Source of the DNA: Betaproteobacteria bacterium HGW-Betaproteobacteria-4
Lineage (GTDB): Bacteria; Pseudomonadota; Gammaproteobacteria; Burkholderiales; Rhodocyclaceae
Length of the DNA: 64,000 nucleotides
Assembly: GCA_002840785.1 (NCBI GenBank)
Contig: PHCH01000001.1
Span: 1 to 64,000 of the forward strand
Direction: 5' to 3'
Under the pieces are notes generated by a model. The model was not told where the DNA came from, made no database searches, and was given only the letters and a program-made list of their open reading frames with translations. A program made the translations under genes and the position numbers. Of the stretch, positions 3,139 to 12,836 are shown piece after piece. The number at the start of each line of letters is the position of its first letter. The first letter of the stretch is position 1.

Positions 3139-3215
3139 CGGAGTGTAGCTCAGCCTGGTAGAGCACTGCGTTCGGGACGCAGGGGTCGCAAGTTCGAATC
3201 CTGTCACTCCGACCA
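3139..3215 (+). tRNA. tRNA-Pro (CGG anticodon)
   Basis: Acceptor CGGAGTG/CACTCCG, anticodon arm CTGCG-TTCGGGA-CGCAG, T-loop GTTCGAATC, encoded CCA; 77 nt. Confidence 0.95.
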
Positions 3216-3231
3216 AAACACTGCAAAGAAG

Positions 3232-3268
3232 AAAACCCACGTAATTCAAAAGATTACGTGGGTTTTTT
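3232..3268 (+). terminator. Rho-independent terminator after tRNA-Pro
   Basis: AAAACCCACGTAAT-TCAAAAG-ATTACGTGGGTTTTTT. Confidence 0.85.
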
Positions 3269-3387
3269 GTTTTCTAAAGCCCTGGTTCGCAACGTCCATT
3301 TGTCATCGCCGTGACTATTTCGTGACTAAATTGTGGCTATTTCGTGACTAGGGTTCAGTGCGCTAAGCGGCAATTCGAAAATATTGA

Positions 3388-3642
3388 CTACTGCGCGCTG
3401 TGACTGTCCTCTGTGACCGTCTCGTCAGGCACATATTCAGCCAATTGTTCTAATTTGCATCCGAAGAACCTGCACAGCTTGTCTAGGTTGTCCGTAACGG
3501 TGCTGTAGCTTCGTTGATTCACCATCTTTGAAAGCGTGACGCGATTGATACCCGTTGCTTGAGATACCTCGAGCAACGTCACACGCTTTCCCTCTGAAAA
3601 GCGTTTTTCTGCGAGCAGTTCTTGTAAGCGAAAACGTATCAT
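3388..3642 (-). CDS. XRE/Cro-CI family helix-turn-helix regulator
   Basis: TLLEVSQATGINRVTLSKMVNQRSYSTVTDNLDKLCRFFGC. Confidence 0.75.
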   Translation of the reverse strand: MIRFRLQELLAEKRFSEGKRVTLLEVSQATGINRVTLSKMVNQRSYSTVTDNLDKLCRFFGCKLEQLAEYVPDETVTEDSHSAQ

Positions 3643-3765
3643 TGTTCATCAATATTAACGTACGTAACAAATTTCTTGCAAAACCAATTCGTTTGTGTAA
3701 CGATATATTTACATTGATTCAGAAAAAGATATCGATGTATTTATTAACTAACAAACGAGGTTGCT

Positions 3766-4050
3766 ATGTACTCAGCTATTCCCAGCGCAGCTAACCATCT
3801 GTCAGACAATTCTAGCGCTAGTCTGACTTACCTGACCACTGACGAACTTTCCTCGAGAATCAAGTACGACTCTCGGACCATTCGGGAAAGACTCAAAGAT
3901 AGCGTTCTGCTGGAAGGTATCCACTATATCCGTCCATTTGGCGGCCGAAAAATTCTCTACATCTGGGAGAAGATTGAATTTGACATGGCAAAACGCACTG
4001 TCAGTTCATTCTCGATTCCTATGGCCAATGGAGGGGTATGCCATGGCTAG
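3766..4050 (+). CDS. Small DNA-binding/excisionase-like protein
   Basis: LTTDELSSRIKYDSRTIRERLKDSVLLEGIHYIRPFGGRKILYIWEKIEFDM, directly upstream of and overlapping the integrase. Confidence 0.55.
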   Translation: MYSAIPSAANHLSDNSSASLTYLTTDELSSRIKYDSRTIRERLKDSVLLEGIHYIRPFGGRKILYIWEKIEFDMAKRTVSSFSIPMANGGVCHG

Positions 4051-5290
4051 CATTCAAGTTCGAAAGGAAAGTAATACCCTGATCATCGACTTTTATTGGC
4101 AAGGAAAGCGTTGCCGTGAGCAAACACTTTTGGTGGATAGCTCAACCAATAGGAAACGGCTCTCCAAGGTTGCTGAAAAAATCGAAGAAAAAATTTCGAC
4201 TGGAGAATTCAACTACCGCGAATTTTTCCCCAACAGCAAGAATGCCGCGAAATTTGACCTTCCCGAGCCCTCTGCTACGGTCGTAGCGCAAGCTGTATTG
4301 AACATGGGTCATTCGGATGTCGGCAGCACGCCTTTGTTCAAAGACTTCGCCGAGGTTTGGTATTCCGAGAAAGCCGTGGAGTGGCGGACGTCCCATAAAA
4401 AGACGATCCGCGATGACATCAATAAGCGTCTGAATCCCCGATTTGGGGATATGGAGGTCGGCGTCATCACTAAGGCTGACATTCTTGCTTTCCGTGCAGA
4501 CCTCGCCAAAGCTCCGGCACGGAACAAGAACACTACGCTGTCGAATCCACGAATCAATAAAATCCTCGATCCGCTAAGGCAAATCATCTGCGAAGCCGCC
4601 GACCGCTTTAATTTTCGCACGCCCTTCCAGAACATCAAACAACTTCGCGTAAAGCGGAGCGATGTCGAACCCTTCTCGCTGGACGAAGTGAAGGCGATCA
4701 TCAATACCGTACGGCCGGACTTCAAGAACTACTTCACGGTCCGCTTCTTTACTGGGATGCGCACGGGCGAAGTTCACGGCCTCAAGTGGAAATACATCGA
4801 TTTTGAGCGCCGCCTGATTCTCGTCCGGGAAACCGTGGTGGATGGTGAAGAAACCTACACCAAGACCGATTCCTCACAGCGTGAAATCCAGATGTCGCAA
4901 CTGGTCTTCGACGCGTTGAAGGAGCAGCACAAAGGTACTGGAAAGCGTTCGGAGTTTGTCTTCTGTAATCGGGATGGATTGACGCTCGACTACAAGAACG
5001 TCAATAACCGTGTCTGGAAGCCTCTATTGCGTCATCTTGGGCTCAAGGTACGTCGGCCTTATCAATGTAGGCATACGGCAGCCACGCTGTGGATGGGAGC
5101 AGGGGAGAACCCAGAGTGGATCGCCAGGCAGCTAGGGCACAGCACCACGGAAATGTTATTCCGTGTCTATTCGCGCTATGTGCCCAATCTAACTCGGCGC
5201 GATGGATCAGCGTTTGAACGCATGCTGACGGCCTCGCTGGGTGAAGGTCAGGCGCAGATTGTTGTAGATCCCGTTTCGGAAGGAGTTTAA
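4043..5290 (+). CDS. Tyrosine recombinase / site-specific integrase
   Basis: GMRTGEVHGLKW, CRHTAATLWMGAG, ARQLGHSTTEMLFRVYSRYV; start refined to ATG 4043 (MASIQVRKE), adjacent to tRNA-Pro. Confidence 0.9.
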   Translation: MASIQVRKESNTLIIDFYWQGKRCREQTLLVDSSTNRKRLSKVAEKIEEKISTGEFNYREFFPNSKNAAKFDLPEPSATVVAQAVLNMGHSDVGSTPLFKDFAEVWYSEKAVEWRTSHKKTIRDDINKRLNPRFGDMEVGVITKADILAFRADLAKAPARNKNTTLSNPRINKILDPLRQIICEAADRFNFRTPFQNIKQLRVKRSDVEPFSLDEVKAIINTVRPDFKNYFTVRFFTGMRTGEVHGLKWKYIDFERRLILVRETVVDGEETYTKTDSSQREIQMSQLVFDALKEQHKGTGKRSEFVFCNRDGLTLDYKNVNNRVWKPLLRHLGLKVRRPYQCRHTAATLWMGAGENPEWIARQLGHSTTEMLFRVYSRYVPNLTRRDGSAFERMLTASLGEGQAQIVVDPVSEGV

Positions 5291-5293
5291 AGC

Positions 5294-6223
5294 ATGACTG
5301 CATCTATTCCTCTGTCCCACGCTGTCGTTCAATCCTCTTCCGAGACAGCTGCCTATTACCGACTCACGAGTATTACCCGCCTGCCCGGAAAAGGGGGCCG
5401 GGGTGTCACCAACATCGCAACGCTGTATCACGAGCAGGGTGCCCTTGAAGTCACCTGGCAGTCTGCACAGGTTGATAGTCGCCTGAAGCGTGGCTGCTAT
5501 GTAGCCATGCGTGGCATCGAGCATTCAGTCGCATCGGACAGTGTGACCAAGATCCAGCGCCTCGATCTGCTCGACAAGCCACTGCCGAGCATTAATCCGT
5601 TCGATGTGGTGCCTGCCAATTGGGTTCGTGATCGCGCCCTGGTAAAGCGTGCCAGTAACTTGTGGGGCCAGCTCTCTCGTCCACTTCAGCATCTGGTTAC
5701 TGCTGTGTTGTGGGATGGGAGTCGGTTCGAACGCTTCGTGACCGGGCCTGCTGCATTGAGTTGCTACCCGCCGGTGCCCAATGCCAATCTCAGTCACGCC
5801 GTTGAAACCGCTGAAACTGCTCTGATGCTGGCGAATGGTCTGATGGATGTCTCGACATCTGTGGTGATCGTCGCCGCCCTGTTGCACGATGCTGGGAAGG
5901 CAGATGACTTTAGGCTTAGTCCGGATCGTGATGGCTATGCCTATTCCGAACGCGGCCAATTGGTCGGGGCGCGCCACACGGTTCTCGAGTGGCTGGCGGT
6001 CGCGCGGGGTAGGGACGGGGTAATTGTGCCGGAGGGGCAATACCTCGCCTTGATTCATGCGCTGACTGCAACTCGCGGTGCTGGTTGGTTGGGTATTCGC
6101 GAGCCGCAGATTATCGAAGCCACAATTCTCGCAGCGGCTGATCGGGTCTGTAACGAATCGGGGTGGTCGCCCAATCGCTACGCCGAGCGGCATGAGTCGT
6201 TCCGGACGGGCGGTGTGCGTTGA
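5294..6223 (+). CDS. OB-fold-like plus HD-domain protein (YhaM-like architecture)
   Basis: HAVETAETALMLANG...ALLHDAGKADDFRLS..GQLVGARHTVLEWL...LALIHALTATRG...EATILAAADRV. Confidence 0.55.
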   Translation: MTASIPLSHAVVQSSSETAAYYRLTSITRLPGKGGRGVTNIATLYHEQGALEVTWQSAQVDSRLKRGCYVAMRGIEHSVASDSVTKIQRLDLLDKPLPSINPFDVVPANWVRDRALVKRASNLWGQLSRPLQHLVTAVLWDGSRFERFVTGPAALSCYPPVPNANLSHAVETAETALMLANGLMDVSTSVVIVAALLHDAGKADDFRLSPDRDGYAYSERGQLVGARHTVLEWLAVARGRDGVIVPEGQYLALIHALTATRGAGWLGIREPQIIEATILAAADRVCNESGWSPNRYAERHESFRTGGVR

Positions 6224-6489
6224 GTCGCGCGACATTCATGATGCGCTGTCGCGATGAGTGGCGGAGACTTAATCCCAAGTTTGTACGGTCAGGCACAACC
6301 CTGGGGGAAACTTTCTGGGATGCATGCCGCGAAGGTGTCTATGGTTTCTTCGCCCCGCCGGGCCTGCTCTGGTGGTTGTGTTTAAACGCGTGGAAATAGC
6401 CGGCGCCGGATTCCGGCAATATGCAAAGGCGGTAGTCTGAGTTGATGTAACGCAAAGGGCAGGGGTTCGGGCATTGGTAGACTTTCCGA

Positions 6490-6735
6490 ATGCCTAAATT
6501 CCTGCCCCCATCCACCCCGCAACTGAATCGGTTACGCGCTGCTGCCACGCTGATTCCCATCATTGAATCAGGATTGGCTGACTCAAAACTATCACCGGAT
6601 AAGGCTGCCTTGATGGCTTCCTTCTGCGAATGGGCCGCTGAAGCCACGACGAGCGATGCAGAAGAGGCCATGCTTTCTGAGAGTATCGGTCAAGGTTTGG
6701 ATCGATTGAAGGCACGGTTCGCTAGATCGGTATAA
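6490..6735 (+). CDS. Hypothetical protein
   Basis: 81 aa ORF; no recognised domain. Confidence 0.35.
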   Translation: MPKFLPPSTPQLNRLRAAATLIPIIESGLADSKLSPDKAALMASFCEWAAEATTSDAEEAMLSESIGQGLDRLKARFARSV

Positions 6736-6787
6736 ATTCCGTATAGTGGTTACGGAAATCTTCGGCTTTTATGCCCTCAAGTAAATA

Positions 6788-7126
6788 TTGATTAACTATA
6801 GGAACAAAATGGACATTTCTAATCTTTCCGTATCTGAGCTGAAATCTCTTCTTGAGCAAATCCCCGCGGAGATCAAACGGCGTGAAAAGCAAGAGAAAGG
6901 CCGTATCCGGCAAGAGCTTGAGGCATTGGCAGCAAAGAGTGGCTATTCCCTCGATGAGTTGCTAAATGAGGCAAGTGAGAAGGTCCGCAAAGTGGTAAAA
7001 GTTGTTCCGGTCAAATATCGCCATCCACAGGATAGCTCTTTGGCTTGGACGGGCAGAGGTCGCCAACCAAAGTGGGTAGTAGAGTTTTTGGCTGCAGGAG
7101 GGACGCTGGGGCAACTTTCAATCTGA
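6788..7126 (+). CDS. H-NS family nucleoid-associated protein
   Basis: C-terminal YRHPQDSSLAWTGRGRQPKWV plus N-terminal coiled coil. Confidence 0.9.
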   Translation: MINYRNKMDISNLSVSELKSLLEQIPAEIKRREKQEKGRIRQELEALAAKSGYSLDELLNEASEKVRKVVKVVPVKYRHPQDSSLAWTGRGRQPKWVVEFLAAGGTLGQLSI

Positions 7127-7146
7127 GTTGTTCAAAGCTAAACAAC

Positions 7147-7170
7147 AAGGGCCGCGTATGCGGCCTTTTT
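7147..7170 (+). terminator. Rho-independent terminator after H-NS gene
   Basis: AAGGGCCGC-GTAT-GCGGCCTTTTT. Confidence 0.75.
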
Positions 7171-7360
7171 GCTAGCCCTGCGGGATCATCCAGCGCGAGT
7201 AGTCGAGAGCCAGATTTCCGATGAGCTAAATTAGATTTGCACATCGTGGCTGACTTGAATAAGTAAATTGACCATCAAATCCGGATGCGTTGAAGCCGTA
7301 TTCAAACGTGGCCGTTCACAATCCAAACCTGCCCAACCTGCATTACAGAGAACAGAACCA

Positions 7361-7615
7361 ATGAAAACGCCGATTCAAGCCGCCGTTGATGAAGTAATGA
7401 AGAGCCGCTATTCGTGCCGAGCTTATTTGCCAACTGAGGTCCCCAAGAAAGTCATCGAGGAAATTCTGGCCATTGCATCTCGAGCACCATCCGGAACCAA
7501 CATCCAACCTTGGAAGGTTTGGGTTCTGACGGGAGAAAGCAAAACCAAACTTAGTGAGCGCATTGTCGCGGCTTTTGATGATCCGGAAGAAGCCGCTACC
7601 CATTCGGAGAGTTAG
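7361..7615 (+). pseudogene. Nitroreductase family, N-terminal fragment
   Basis: MKSRYSCRAYLPTEVPKKVIEEILAIASRAPSGTNIQPWKVWVLTG then stops at the junction with patatin sequence. Confidence 0.7.
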
Positions 7616-8364
7616 GCTATAGCGTTGACGCCATCTTGGAGTTGTACCGCAAGCACGTGCCCGTAGTTATGTCGCAGAAGACTGCTCAGGCTAGGTCGGT
7701 AGCGCTGAAGAAATTGGCCAGCGAAGTCTTCGGCGATGCGACGTTTAACGACGTAAAGACCGGCATCGGTATCGTCTCAGCCAAGTGGCTGACCGAGCGC
7801 CCGATGATCTTCAAGGGTAGCGTTGCGCAGGCGCACGGTCGCGTGAGCACATTTGTACCCGGCTTCGGCGTGAGCATCGCCGATGCCGTCAAGGCATCGT
7901 GCTCTGCATATCCCTTCTTTGAGCGCACGATCGTCCGGACCTCGATGGGCGAGGAGATCGAGTTGATAGACGGTGGCTACTGCGCGAACAACCCGACTTT
8001 GTACGCGATTGCGGATGCTGTGCAGGCTCTCAAGCGCGAGCGCAAGGATATCCGGCTGGTGAGCGTCGGCGTGGGCATCTACCCGGACCCTAAACCGGGC
8101 CTCCTGATGCGACTGGCGAAGAAGTATCTCGTCAGCGTCCAGTTGCTGCAGAAGACTCTGGAGATTAATACGCAGTCGATGGACCAGTTGCGCCAGATTC
8201 TGTTCCAAGACGTGCCGACCATCCGGATTAGCGACTCCTACGTTACCCCTGAAATGGCCACCGACCTGTTGGAGCACGACCTCAAGAAGCTGGGCATCCT
8301 GTTTCAACGCGGACGTGAGTCGTTTGCCTCGCGGGAGAAGCAGCTTCGCGAGTATTTGATGTAG
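7615..8364 (+). pseudogene. CapV-like patatin phospholipase, 5'-truncated (lacks GGGxRG and GxSxG)
   Basis: Begins at GYSVDAILELYRKHVP (the region normally just after GxSxG); retains SCSAYPFF and catalytic-Asp motif IDGGYCANNP. Confidence 0.75.
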
Positions 8365-8379
8365 CCAAGGAAGAGATAG

Positions 8380-9273
8380 ATGCCAATACCAGAATCGCAA
8401 TTGGAAACGTGGTCGCACCAAGGGTCGATCACCCAGTCGAGCAACACCTACAACACGATCAAGAGCGTACTGGAAGCTAGCACCACACCTTACGCTAGCA
8501 AGAACTTCAAGGTGTTCCTCCAAGGCTCATACGGCAATGATACAAACATCTACGCCGAGAGCGACGTGGATCTCGTCATCCGGCTTGACGACTGCTTTCA
8601 GAGTGACCTTAGCGAACTGACAGAAGAGGAGAAAGCCGCATACAAGTCCGGGTTTCCTGACGCGACCTATACGTATGCCGACTTTAAGAAGGATGTTTTA
8701 TCGGTACTCACGCAGGCATACGGAGGGGCAGTCACAGCAGGCGATAAGGCTATTGCCATTGATGCCAATGGATCGCGTCGCAAAGCCGATGTGATTGTGG
8801 CCATCCAATTTCGGCGCTACTTCAAGTTCCGGTCATCAAGCGACTCAACGTATGTTGAAGGGATTTGCTTCTGGAACGGCAATGGAGACCGGATCGCGAA
8901 CTACCCGAAACAGCACTCGGCCAATCTGACAGCGAAGCACCAGAGTACTTCAAAGTGGTTCAAGCCGTTGGCTCGTGTGTTCAAAAACATGCGCAGTCGA
9001 ATGGTTGACGAAGGCTTGATCAAGCCCGGTGTGGCACCTTCGTACTATATCGAAGGCCTGCTCTACAACGTACCAAACGAGAAATTAACGTCCAGCTACC
9101 AAGACTGCGTGGTCAACGCTTTGAACTGGTACCGACAGGAGGCGTTGAAGACGGATCTTGTGTGTGCCAATGAACAGTATTACTTGCTACGTGACGGACA
9201 ACATACCTGCTGGAACCAAGCGAATTGCGACGCGTTTATTGAAGCTGCAGTTAGGTTGTGGAATGAGTGGTAA
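8380..9273 (+). CDS. CBASS CD-NTase (cGAS/DncV-like nucleotidyltransferase)
   Basis: [24 protein letters not shown] (GS..DxD) and third acidic residue in [11 protein letters not shown]; 16 nt downstream of the patatin. Confidence 0.85.
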
Positions 9274-9596
9274 CGGTGGCAGAGCCCGTCATTCCAATCG
9301 CCGGCCTTGGTAGGTAACCGTATTTGAAGCTCAACTCCCCTGAAGGCAGCCGCCATGCTGGTACGACAGGGCTACTTTGCTAAGCAGACACTCGGATTTG
9401 TATGCGAAAGTCGTGGCAGTTCAGACGTCCTAGCCGTGGGGGCAGGACTGCCCATCCTGAAGGCGACTGTTATCTTCGGCTTCATGCCCTAATGTCGGAT
9501 AAACTCTGAACTTCTACCCATTATCAATATGTCGTGTGGCATTCTCGTCGCCAACTTCTCCGGTGGCTATTATCCGGGCTTTGTTACCAGAAACAG

Positions 9597-10214
9597 TTAA
9601 TAATAAGAAACGTCAGTTGTGACTTCCTTGCTAAACTGCTGCAACCGAATTCTGCCGGTGGTCTTTCGGTCCGTATAATAACTTCCCGATAACTCTAGTC
9701 TAACGTTTCCTTTGATTTCCACGCGTCGTATATCAAAGAGAGTTGAGCCTGTGTAGGTATACCAATCAGGGTTTCTCGGAGTGACACGATGGACGTAATA
9801 TAATCTCGCCTGCCCACCTTCTGTGACTGGGGTCGACTCTAGAGTGATAGATTTTGATGTCGGGGTGTGCAAATCAATTTGTGTATAGCTCAGTGTTTGT
9901 CTAATTATTGCGCGCGTTACCAGTTTGGTTTCGCCGAATGTTATCTCACCCTCCCACGCACCATTTATATCTGGAAACAAGGAACCGTCAAATAAACTCA
10001 GTAAGGACCATATTTTACGAGATATAAAACTTGAGCTTACTGCAGTTATCAAAACCGCACTCACGGCGGAAGCAATTGTAAAAAGCTTGATTAGTGATGT
10101 CCCAGGCAAAAACCAGTCGATCATTGCATAGAGCGCGATACTGAAGGCAACTGTTACGCCGACCAATATCTTGATTAAAACAGAAATATTTATAATTCTG
10201 AACATATCAACCAA
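9597..10214 (-). CDS. optE: S-2TMbeta effector (two TM helices plus beta-rich domain), Panoptes effector-like
   Basis: Two N-terminal TM helices, then DINGAWEGEITFGETKLVTRAIIRQTLSYTQIDLHTPTSKS beta-rich domain; 8-nt overlap with the mCpol gene. Confidence 0.7.
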   Translation of the reverse strand: MVDMFRIINISVLIKILVGVTVAFSIALYAMIDWFLPGTSLIKLFTIASAVSAVLITAVSSSFISRKIWSLLSLFDGSLFPDINGAWEGEITFGETKLVTRAIIRQTLSYTQIDLHTPTSKSITLESTPVTEGGQARLYYVHRVTPRNPDWYTYTGSTLFDIRRVEIKGNVRLELSGSYYTDRKTTGRIRLQQFSKEVTTDVSYY

Positions 10215-10584
10215 CTAGGTCTTTGTAGTTGTGAAGTTGTGCCTTGCCCGCGCTTTTGGCCGACATCAATGCGATGTACGATTCCCGCAAGGTACATCCC
10301 ACTCCTACCGAGAAGGTAGCGCACCCCTCTCCTAGTGCAGATATCTCCTTAAAGATATTCGACTCTGGAACTTTTAGATATTGTGCAAATCCCGCTACAC
10401 CATCCGCACCGCAGAATATTACGGTAAACCCAATACCTTTAAGGTAAGTGGAAATTAACTGCGTTGTCTTCCCCATTAAATCATTAAGATTTGCCAGCGA
10501 TTTTTCATCGTTATTTAGATAAAATCTGGTAATCCGCTGGCCTACATCGTCACCATCAATTGTAAGATATATCATCTCAAACAA
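10207..10584 (-). CDS. optS: Minimal CRISPR polymerase (mCpol) cyclic-nucleotide synthase, Panoptes-like
   Basis: 125 aa single Palm-like domain: YLTIDGDDVGQRITRFYLNND...TVIFCGADGVAGF...FSVGVGCTLRESYIALMSAKSAGKAQLHNY; same strand and overlapping the effector. Confidence 0.75.
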   Translation of the reverse strand: MFEMIYLTIDGDDVGQRITRFYLNNDEKSLANLNDLMGKTTQLISTYLKGIGFTVIFCGADGVAGFAQYLKVPESNIFKEISALGEGCATFSVGVGCTLRESYIALMSAKSAGKAQLHNYKDLVG

Positions 10585-10871
10585 ACCATCTCGCTGTTAG
10601 TGATTGCGTTGCAACAGGCAGGCGTATTAGGAAGGTGAGTGAATCAGAGAAAGGCGTATTCCCGTGAGGATGTCGCCGCTCAGTATTTGCCGTCATTCGA
10701 GTGTCCAGAGTTATGGGGAAGTCTAGCCGGCGACTTACGGCCGCAGGGATGCATACCAAGTAACTGCTTTCTGGCATCATGTCAAATGAGTGCTTTCAAA
10801 CAGAAATGGACGCTCATGAAGTTTAAACGAGTGCTGGCTCAAAAGACGAAACCTTCTCGACAGGGGAAACT

Positions 10872-11510
10872 TTGGCTTCTAATCACGAATATGCAGTCAT
10901 AGGCCATAGCCGTGCAACGGTGGGGCGCTTCCTCGGCGTCGGCGCCGGACTGGCGAGCTCAGGTCTCGCCCTCCTAATCGCCAGTGCGATCACCTACGCA
11001 GAGCGTTGGGGCTTCCTCCACGCGCGCGCCTATTGGACTCTGCCTCTCACTGCTACGATTTTCTACACGCTTGGACACCTCGCGTTCGACAAATGGGCGT
11101 GGCGGACCTGGTTGGTGCATTTCGTCCTCGATATCCCTGATCTGCGCGGCAAGTGGGATTGCATCGGCGAGACTATCGATTCCGCCACTGGCGGGGTCGA
11201 ATATAACTGGACCGCAGAGGTAACCATTTCTCAGGGGTGGGAGAAAATTAGAATCTACTCCGAGACAAAGCACTCCCGCTCGCGCAGCGTCGCTGCCTCT
11301 ATCCTGGTCGAGGAAGAGGTGGGCTATATCTTAATGTATAGCTACCGCAACGAACCCCGGCCCGGGGAGCCCGAACTCAAAGCGCATTTCGGTTATGCCG
11401 AATGGCATATTTCCCGAGACGGATCCACAGCCGAAGCAACTTATTTCAACGGTGGAGGCCGCTACACCGGCGGCTGCATGAAACTAACAAGGAAGACACG
11501 TGGCAACTGA
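10872..11510 (+). CDS. cap15: Cap15-like CBASS effector (2TM plus beta-barrel, S-2TMbeta)
   Basis: Two N-terminal TM helices, then IPDLRGKWDCIGETIDS...YNWTAEVTISQGWEKIRIYSETKHSRSRS; overlaps the downstream CD-NTase; start codon uncertain (TTG). Confidence 0.75.
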   Translation: MASNHEYAVIGHSRATVGRFLGVGAGLASSGLALLIASAITYAERWGFLHARAYWTLPLTATIFYTLGHLAFDKWAWRTWLVHFVLDIPDLRGKWDCIGETIDSATGGVEYNWTAEVTISQGWEKIRIYSETKHSRSRSVAASILVEEEVGYILMYSYRNEPRPGEPELKAHFGYAEWHISRDGSTAEATYFNGGGRYTGGCMKLTRKTRGN

Positions 11511-12606
11511 TTTTTCCAGCCGTCTCAGCAGGGTTAATGCGCGCCGCAACGGTACGGGCGTCGCTGTACTCAACAAGAGTTTCTCGTTCAGCGAAGACAG
11601 TTCACTTCTGGACTCAGTAACCCAGGGCTACCAGAACAAGACCAAGTCGAAGAGCTTCCAATATGCGCTGGTATCCATGCAGGAAGTGGATGCGAAGTAC
11701 ACCGCCATCAGTTTTAGGGAGGCTGAACGGGTCGCAAAACAGCTCGACTCAGGGCTCTTGAGAAATGGAAAAGTCGTAACGGTCGAATTGCAAGGCTCGT
11801 TACCGTTGAACGTGCATCTGCGACGAGTGAGCGATGTGGACATGCTCGTTTGGCCATTAAATTTCTTTGTGTATGACATTTATGGTGTGGCCGCGTCCAG
11901 TTATACGGCCAGCGCGAGCAATGCTGTTTCCGAAATTAGCACCTTGCGTTCTGATTCCTGCTCTGTCCTTCGTTCCGCCTTCCCTGCTGCCAGGGTGGAT
12001 GATTCTGGGGCGAAATGCATCAGGATGTCCGAAGGCTCGCTGCTCCGTGAGATTGATGTGGTTCCGTCCGTGTTGTATAGGGCCGAGGCCTATCAGCGTT
12101 CTAGTAATGACGACGACAGGGGTGTGCAGATCTACGACAAGAAGAAATACGCGCTAGTCACTAACTTCCCCTTTAAGGTGCGAGCGTTGATCAATGCGAA
12201 AGAGGCCCGCACGGGAGGTGGTTGTAAGAAGGCAATTCGCCTGCTCAAGAACATGAAGGAGGATGCTGATTCGGCCATCGCGCTGTCCAGTTTCGACATC
12301 ATGTCATTAGTCTATGCGATGCAGGATTTCGACCTGGTTCATCAGTCCTACTACGAGGGGAGAATCGTCGCATCGTTGCAGAACTGGTTCTTTACCTTGG
12401 CGCACAACGAGAGTCAGTTGCGAACGCTTGATGCCGTGGATGGAAGCCGAAAGATCGTGCAGTCGGCAGCCGATGTCGTGGCGGTGGCGCAGATGTCTGA
12501 GGAACTGAACATGCTGGTCCTGCGTATCGCACAAGAGTTGCAGCCCGACGTCCCAACCAGTTATCCAGCATGGCGGGCCAAGGTTGAAAGCGAACTCTTG
12601 ATCTAG
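11500..12606 (+). CDS. CBASS CD-NTase
   Basis: VELQGSLPLNVHLRRVSDVDMLVW (GS..DxD) and LLREIDVVPSVLYRA third acidic residue; GTG start overlaps the Cap15 gene by 11 nt. Confidence 0.8.
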   Translation: MATDFSSRLSRVNARRNGTGVAVLNKSFSFSEDSSLLDSVTQGYQNKTKSKSFQYALVSMQEVDAKYTAISFREAERVAKQLDSGLLRNGKVVTVELQGSLPLNVHLRRVSDVDMLVWPLNFFVYDIYGVAASSYTASASNAVSEISTLRSDSCSVLRSAFPAARVDDSGAKCIRMSEGSLLREIDVVPSVLYRAEAYQRSSNDDDRGVQIYDKKKYALVTNFPFKVRALINAKEARTGGGCKKAIRLLKNMKEDADSAIALSSFDIMSLVYAMQDFDLVHQSYYEGRIVASLQNWFFTLAHNESQLRTLDAVDGSRKIVQSAADVVAVAQMSEELNMLVLRIAQELQPDVPTSYPAWRAKVESELLI

Positions 12607-12836
12607 GCCACACTGCCAGGTTAGACGCGTCCGCAACGGCTCAAGGTTGTGTAAGTTCGTCGGTTCGGGAAGTTGTCTTTGAGCGCAGATTCCCACCCGC
12701 CGGCAGGTAAGCAATTCATTGCAGCCTAACGCACTGCAATTGACGAACGTCCGGTTAGGCCGATTTCCCGTCCCACGCCTTCTGTGGCCGGACAAGTCTA
12801 CGCTTCGTGTTCGCCGGTCAGGTCTCGAATTTACCC

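Follow-up and report, generated by a model that had tools for sequence, protein, structure and literature searches.

A Panoptes-type optS-optE pair travels with a Cap15-CdnE CBASS operon in a tRNA-Pro integrase island

Results

The stretch of DNA analysed here (64,000 nucleotides, hereafter the window) carries on its minus strand two adjacent genes, optS and optE, that very probably form a Panoptes system (optSE), in which a decoy dinucleotide made by OptS would keep the effector OptE silent and which would serve as a guard tied to a neighbouring Cap15-CdnE CBASS operon. Family identity, folds, catalytic residues, synteny, clade, purifying selection and a shared mobile unit support this assignment directly. 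The inhibitory logic, the killing at the membrane and the triggering by phage sponges would follow by analogy with the published relatives, and the exact nucleotide made by OptS is a prediction. Panoptes was first described in 2025, and its coupling to CBASS was published in the same year; the window adds another member, in a family in which such systems are rare. The two genes are:

10207-10575, minus strand: optS, stand-alone minimal CRISPR polymerase (mCpol), 122 aa, ATG at 10575
9597-10205, minus strand: optE, S-2TMbeta membrane effector, 202 aa, ATG at 10205

The original prediction had described this pair as minus-strand open reading frames at 10207-10584 (125 aa) and 9597-10214 (205 aa), and both frames are present, as are the motifs quoted from them (DGDDVG, FCGADGVAGF, SAGKAQLHNY and INGAWEGEI). 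The 8-nt overlap that it reported between the two genes, however, is a product of the upstream TTG codons at 10584 and 10214, respectively: Since the alignments of the relatives, with their conserved N-termini, begin at the ATG codons at 10575 for optS and 10205 for optE, the genes do not overlap but are separated by a single nucleotide (TGA-T-ATG). The GC content of optS and optE is about 0.43-0.44, as compared to 0.50-0.58 in the surroundings, and a scan for promoters and terminators remained at chance level.

OptS and OptE belong to the Panoptes protein families

OptS matches the Pfam mCpol family PF18182 over nearly the full protein (E 1.9e-21; 77 bits against a cut-off of 26.4), and the nearest solved chains are the OptS protein of Klebsiella pneumoniae (KpOptS; 9mnr and 9pd0) and the mCpol 9nwn (E about 3e-23, and 2.9e-23 for 9mnr; 42% identity). 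An AlphaFold (AF2) model built from 19 relatives (pLDDT 95) superimposes on these three chains with TM scores of 0.91-0.92 and rmsd values of 1.4-1.7 A. The reading of the first gene as a stand-alone palm-like mCpol is thus borne out, and the structural match to this family that had been proposed as its check was indeed found, with KpOptS at a TM score of 0.92. The equivalents of the catalytic residues D6 and D57 of KpOptS are conserved (D7 and D58 in the numbering from the ATG) and are invariant across 25 aligned rows, i. e. the window and 24 others. A sensor domain is absent from OptS.

The palm fold is shared with the Cas10/Cmr2 proteins of Type III CRISPR systems and with GGDEF diguanylate cyclases (TM about 0.6-0.7 to Csm1, Cmr2 and GGDEF chains), but OptS is a stand-alone single palm without a GGDEF motif, and its match to the Pfam family Cas10-Cmr2_palm2 is weak (E 0.026). 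Two other classifications were rejected. A Type III CRISPR system would have a Cas10 with an HD domain and two palms, whereas here there is a single palm of 122 aa, and no Csm or Cmr partner was found among the neighbouring proteins scanned. The pair itself is not CBASS either: OptS is an mCpol, profile scans with Pfam and PADLOC gave no SMODS match for it, and genuine CBASS operons are located on both sides instead.

OptE was identified by Pfam Cap15_CD_rec (PF18153, E 1.1e-15) and by the PADLOC 2TM effector model (E 5.7e-20). In its AF2 model (pLDDT 86), helices at 7-32 and 40-57/59-72 form the predicted membrane part, and an eight-strand barrel at 82-192 is of the cyclic-dinucleotide receptor type, in agreement with the transmembrane helices and beta domain that had been read from the second gene. 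A sequence search against the PDB chains gave no relative for OptE, and a fold search was needed; its only confident match is the receptor of Cap15 from Yersinia aleksiciae (7n34 and 7n35, TM to target 0.77-0.80). OptE and Cap15 thus share the arrangement of two helices and a cyclic-dinucleotide-receptor barrel, but their barrels are only 18-19% identical, they belong to separate clades, OptE is partnered by an mCpol rather than by a CD-NTase, and by analogy opposite responses to the ligand are expected. The separation is evident from a maximum likelihood tree in which 18 of the 2TMbeta proteins are linked to mCpol and 11 to CBASS: One group (support 97/99), apart from the Cap15 rows, unites 17 OptE rows including that of the window, and the eighteenth, a cyanobacterial one, sits on a long, unresolved branch. 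The Cap15 protein encoded in the window falls outside the OptE clade, together with those of Zoogloea and Janthinobacterium. The OptE clade includes a Rahnella member whose locus is about 89% identical at the DNA level to the optSE loci of E. coli.

Taken with the synteny described below, the family models, the sequence and fold of KpOptS, the Cap15 fold of the barrel and the OptE clade uphold the original prediction of a Panoptes-type pair. That such a pair is observed here is not due to chance, as judged by the E-values for PF18182 and Cap15_CD_rec and by the dN/dS values (see below).

The optSE pair lies between two CBASS operons and moves with one of them

Two CBASS operons that were not mentioned in the original prediction flank optSE. 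The relevant features of the neighbourhood are:

3938-5290, plus strand: tyrosine integrase of the host island (PF00589, E 3e-19), beside tRNA-Pro at 3139-3215
7268-7614, plus strand: 5' fragment of a nitroreductase gene (PF00881, partial), end of the island backbone
7615-8364, plus strand: 3' fragment of a patatin-like effector gene, CBASS operon A (PADLOC effector model matched from position 72 of 311)
8380-9273, plus strand: cdnE, CD-NTase of 297 aa, CBASS operon A (phmmer to RmCdnE 6e0k, E 1.5e-58; PADLOC, E 3.7e-138; Asn at lid 1)
10872-11510, plus strand: cap15, S-2TMbeta effector, CBASS operon B (PF18153, E 8.4e-32; phmmer to Cap15 7n34, E 1.1e-28)
11500-12606, plus strand: cdnE, CD-NTase of 368 aa, CBASS operon B (PADLOC cyclase, E 1.7e-121; 6wt9, E 9e-23; Asn at lid 1)
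9487-12608, no single strand: Panoptes and Cap15-CBASS unit of 3.1 kb, about 91% identical to Zoogloea oleivorans

The cap15 gene is divergent from optS, and the comparison with Z. oleivorans demonstrates that optSE and the Cap15-CdnE operon have been passed together between bacterial genera as one unit: blastn aligns 9695-12608 at 90.9% and 9487-9698 at 85.4% identity in one colinear block, interrupted only by an insertion sequence (IS) in Zoogloea. This block comprises optE, optS, cap15 and cdnE of operon B, with operon A outside. Between the two copies, dN/dS is 0.10 for optS, 0.15 for optE (codons 1-169), 0.10 for cap15 and 0.19 for cdnE, and identity in the spacer is 84%; with dN/dS values this low, all four genes were under selection. 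In Caballeronia and Janthinobacterium, related Cap15-type CdnE genes are also found beside optSE, in other orientations.

The host island (3139-12754) next to tRNA-Pro contains the tyrosine integrase as well as HD-domain and H-NS-like genes. Its backbone is common to the congener G794, where tRNA-Pro is likewise accompanied by an integrase, 92% identical to that of the window. The 90% identity to G794 ends at 7614 inside the nitroreductase gene, whose longer homologue in G794 (an ORF of 264 aa) continues beyond this junction, and resumes at 12755. In the window, the nitroreductase 5' fragment is joined directly to the patatin 3' fragment (7268-8364). Because the patatin fragment starts exactly where the identity to G794 stops, and because this identity resumes at 12755, a defence cargo of about 5.1 kb seems to have replaced other cargo in the island, with the patatin gene cut at the junction. 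A search for a direct repeat of the tRNA-Pro end within the window gave no match, and the boundaries of the island are therefore based on the comparison with G794 rather than on att sites. The patatin fragment is devoid of the GxSxG nucleophile serine, which is present as GTSIG or GTSTG in four relatives, and retains the Asp of the DGG motif. CBASS operon A thus has an intact CdnE and presumably a dead effector; the operon was not found among 60 congeners.

Distribution of optSE and its association with CBASS

In a scan of a genome collection, we found 23 mCpol loci. The optE gene adjoins optS in 18 of them, 17 times in the same direction and once divergently. The divergent case, with abutting genes, is from the cyanobacterium Trichocoleus (L024:4719-5703) and is the sole arrangement seen that is not an operon. 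Genes for a CBASS cyclase or ThiF are present within 6 kb of 13 of the 18 optSE pairs, a count that agrees with the published linkage between Panoptes and CBASS (PMC12657218, PMC12657230). The company is varied: Several different CBASS types accompany the 18 pairs, or none. The sole match in a search of plasmids was a conjugative plasmid of Sulfitobacter, which carries the same optS-optE pair and a DncV-like CBASS. A corresponding search of phages gave no match; viral contigs of IMG/VR contain four remote mCpol homologues (L031-L034, 23-33% identity). Among 398 genomes sampled from the GTDB family of the window, one other, Z. oleivorans, has a true mCpol. A class-wide scan for mCpol returned only weak matches inside longer frames, which were rejected as Panoptes.

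The Panoptes systems of K. pneumoniae KP67, Vibrio navarrensis and E. coli ECOR31 share with the window the gene order optS-optE, the mCpol fold with the catalytic Asp pair, the effector with membrane helices and a barrel, and a CBASS neighbourhood. In the known systems, however, this CBASS contains ubiquitin-like (ThiF) genes, whereas the immediate, divergent neighbour of optSE in the window is a type-I CBASS of two genes.

Discussion

Predicted nucleotide signals of this locus

KpOptS contacts adenine via S30 and N34; the S30N variant is shifted toward 3',2'-cGAMP, and VnOptS from V. navarrensis, which has Asn at the position of S30, forms mixed products that always contain adenine (PMC12657218, PMC12657230). 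In OptS of the window, these two positions are occupied by Asn31 and Gly35, as compared to Ser and Asn in KpOptS and two Asn residues in VnOptS. As it differs from KpOptS at both base contacts, its product may not be 2',3'-c-di-AMP: The two residues point to a pocket that is relaxed or accepts G, and our best guess based on them is an adenine-containing, G-accepting product. In alphaproteobacterial OptS proteins (L007, L018, L019, L021 and L022), Arg or Lys together with Asp or Glu occupy the same positions, which suggests another nucleotide class.

Both CdnE proteins of the window and those of Caballeronia and Janthinobacterium have an Asn at lid 1 (N166 in RmCdnE), a residue that makes the acceptor site selective for uracil (PMC10442399). 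The CBASS signals of the window are thus predicted to be of the uracil type. Since the base-contact residues of OptS point to adenine and the lid-1 Asn to uracil, the signals of OptS and CdnE are predicted, from single residues, to differ. The authors of the Panoptes studies argue that the coexistence of Panoptes and CBASS needs differing signals (PMC12657218, PMC12657230), and the locus described here is a compact natural test of whether the two systems must use different nucleotides in one cell.

Signalling logic and alternative explanations

In the published relatives, OptS is constitutively active, its dinucleotide blocks the oligomerisation of OptE, and Acb sponges or nucleases of phages free OptE, upon which the inner membrane collapses (PMC12657218, PMC12657230). 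By analogy, OptS of the window, as a cyclase of the Cas10-palm type, would constitutively make an adenine-containing cyclic dinucleotide that binds to the OptE barrel and prevents oligomerisation of the effector in the inner membrane. If a phage evades CBASS by sponging or degrading cyclic nucleotides, it would also remove this decoy signal; OptE would then oligomerise and break the membrane, and the infection would be aborted. The optSE pair would in this way guard the divergent Cap15-CdnE CBASS with which it moves as a 3.1-kb unit, and the two signals would have to be chemically distinct. It is tempting to go one step further and to speculate, tentatively, that guard and guarded operon are co-inherited since their signals are tuned to be orthogonal, adenine-based for OptS with its uncharacterised Asn31/Gly35 pocket and of the uracil type for CdnE, so that two homologous effectors of opposite sign can share one membrane; we regard this cassette idea as possible but rather doubtful.

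If instead the nucleotide of OptS also acted on Cap15, or that of CdnE on OptE, the four genes would make up one circuit instead of two systems that act independently. The joint transfer of optSE with cap15-cdnE, the presence of related CdnE genes next to optSE also in Caballeronia and Janthinobacterium and the membership of OptE and Cap15 in one family would all fit such cross-talk, but we consider it unlikely: With a signal common to both, Cap15 would be switched on constitutively, the 18 optSE pairs are found with diverse CBASS types or without any, and all type-I CdnE proteins examined at these loci have the lid-1 Asn and thus a predicted uracil acceptor (PMC10442399), whereas the characterised OptS products contain adenine. 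The sign of the responses is a separate matter. It cannot be read from the sequences of OptE and Cap15, which have the same fold and receptor domain, and the locus bears on the question of why one and the same 2TMbeta fold is activated by its ligand in Cap15 and inhibited by it in OptE, for which it is well suited because the genes for the two proteins are less than 2 kb apart. The fold and the receptor barrel that OptE has in common with the CBASS-activated Cap15 would also be in line with positive signalling, in which infection switches OptS on and its product activates OptE, and the sign has been left open for mCpol systems with other effectors (PMC12657218, PMC12657230). Such a mode is nevertheless very improbable for the pair studied here, as OptS lacks a sensor domain and as the OptE clade includes the Rahnella relative of the E. 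coli system; the E. coli and Klebsiella systems studied so far are inhibitory (PMC12657218, PMC12657230).

Independent evolutionary evidence for the inhibitory logic, although small in extent, comes from naturally broken loci. In Z. oleivorans (L008:6371-7900), optE is disrupted near codon 170 by an IS5-like element that has inverted ends and a 4-bp CTAG target duplication and is mostly masked as N, and in Veronia pacifica (L010:2050-2661) there is an in-frame stop at optE codon 124; optS is intact in both, although an activating logic would tolerate this as well. The neighbours of the Veronia optE are a remote DncV-like gene and the gene for another 2TM protein. In Gemmobacter serpentinus (L026:6001-6492), a sequence junction cuts off optS after about 85 codons, and there is no optE nearby. 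A broken optS with an intact optE was found at none of the mCpol loci, in a scan that is biased by the use of OptS as the query, and at this sample size its absence favours inhibition weakly. The pattern is consistent with the direction expected if the OptS product restrains a toxic OptE, with three cases being few. The disrupted optE of Zoogloea and the loss of the nucleophile from the effector of the adjacent CBASS operon A might also suggest that optSE of the window is itself only a remnant within a defence island, in decay or no longer active. We regard this as most unlikely, since both genes of the window are full length, have retained every family-invariant residue and show low dN/dS values.
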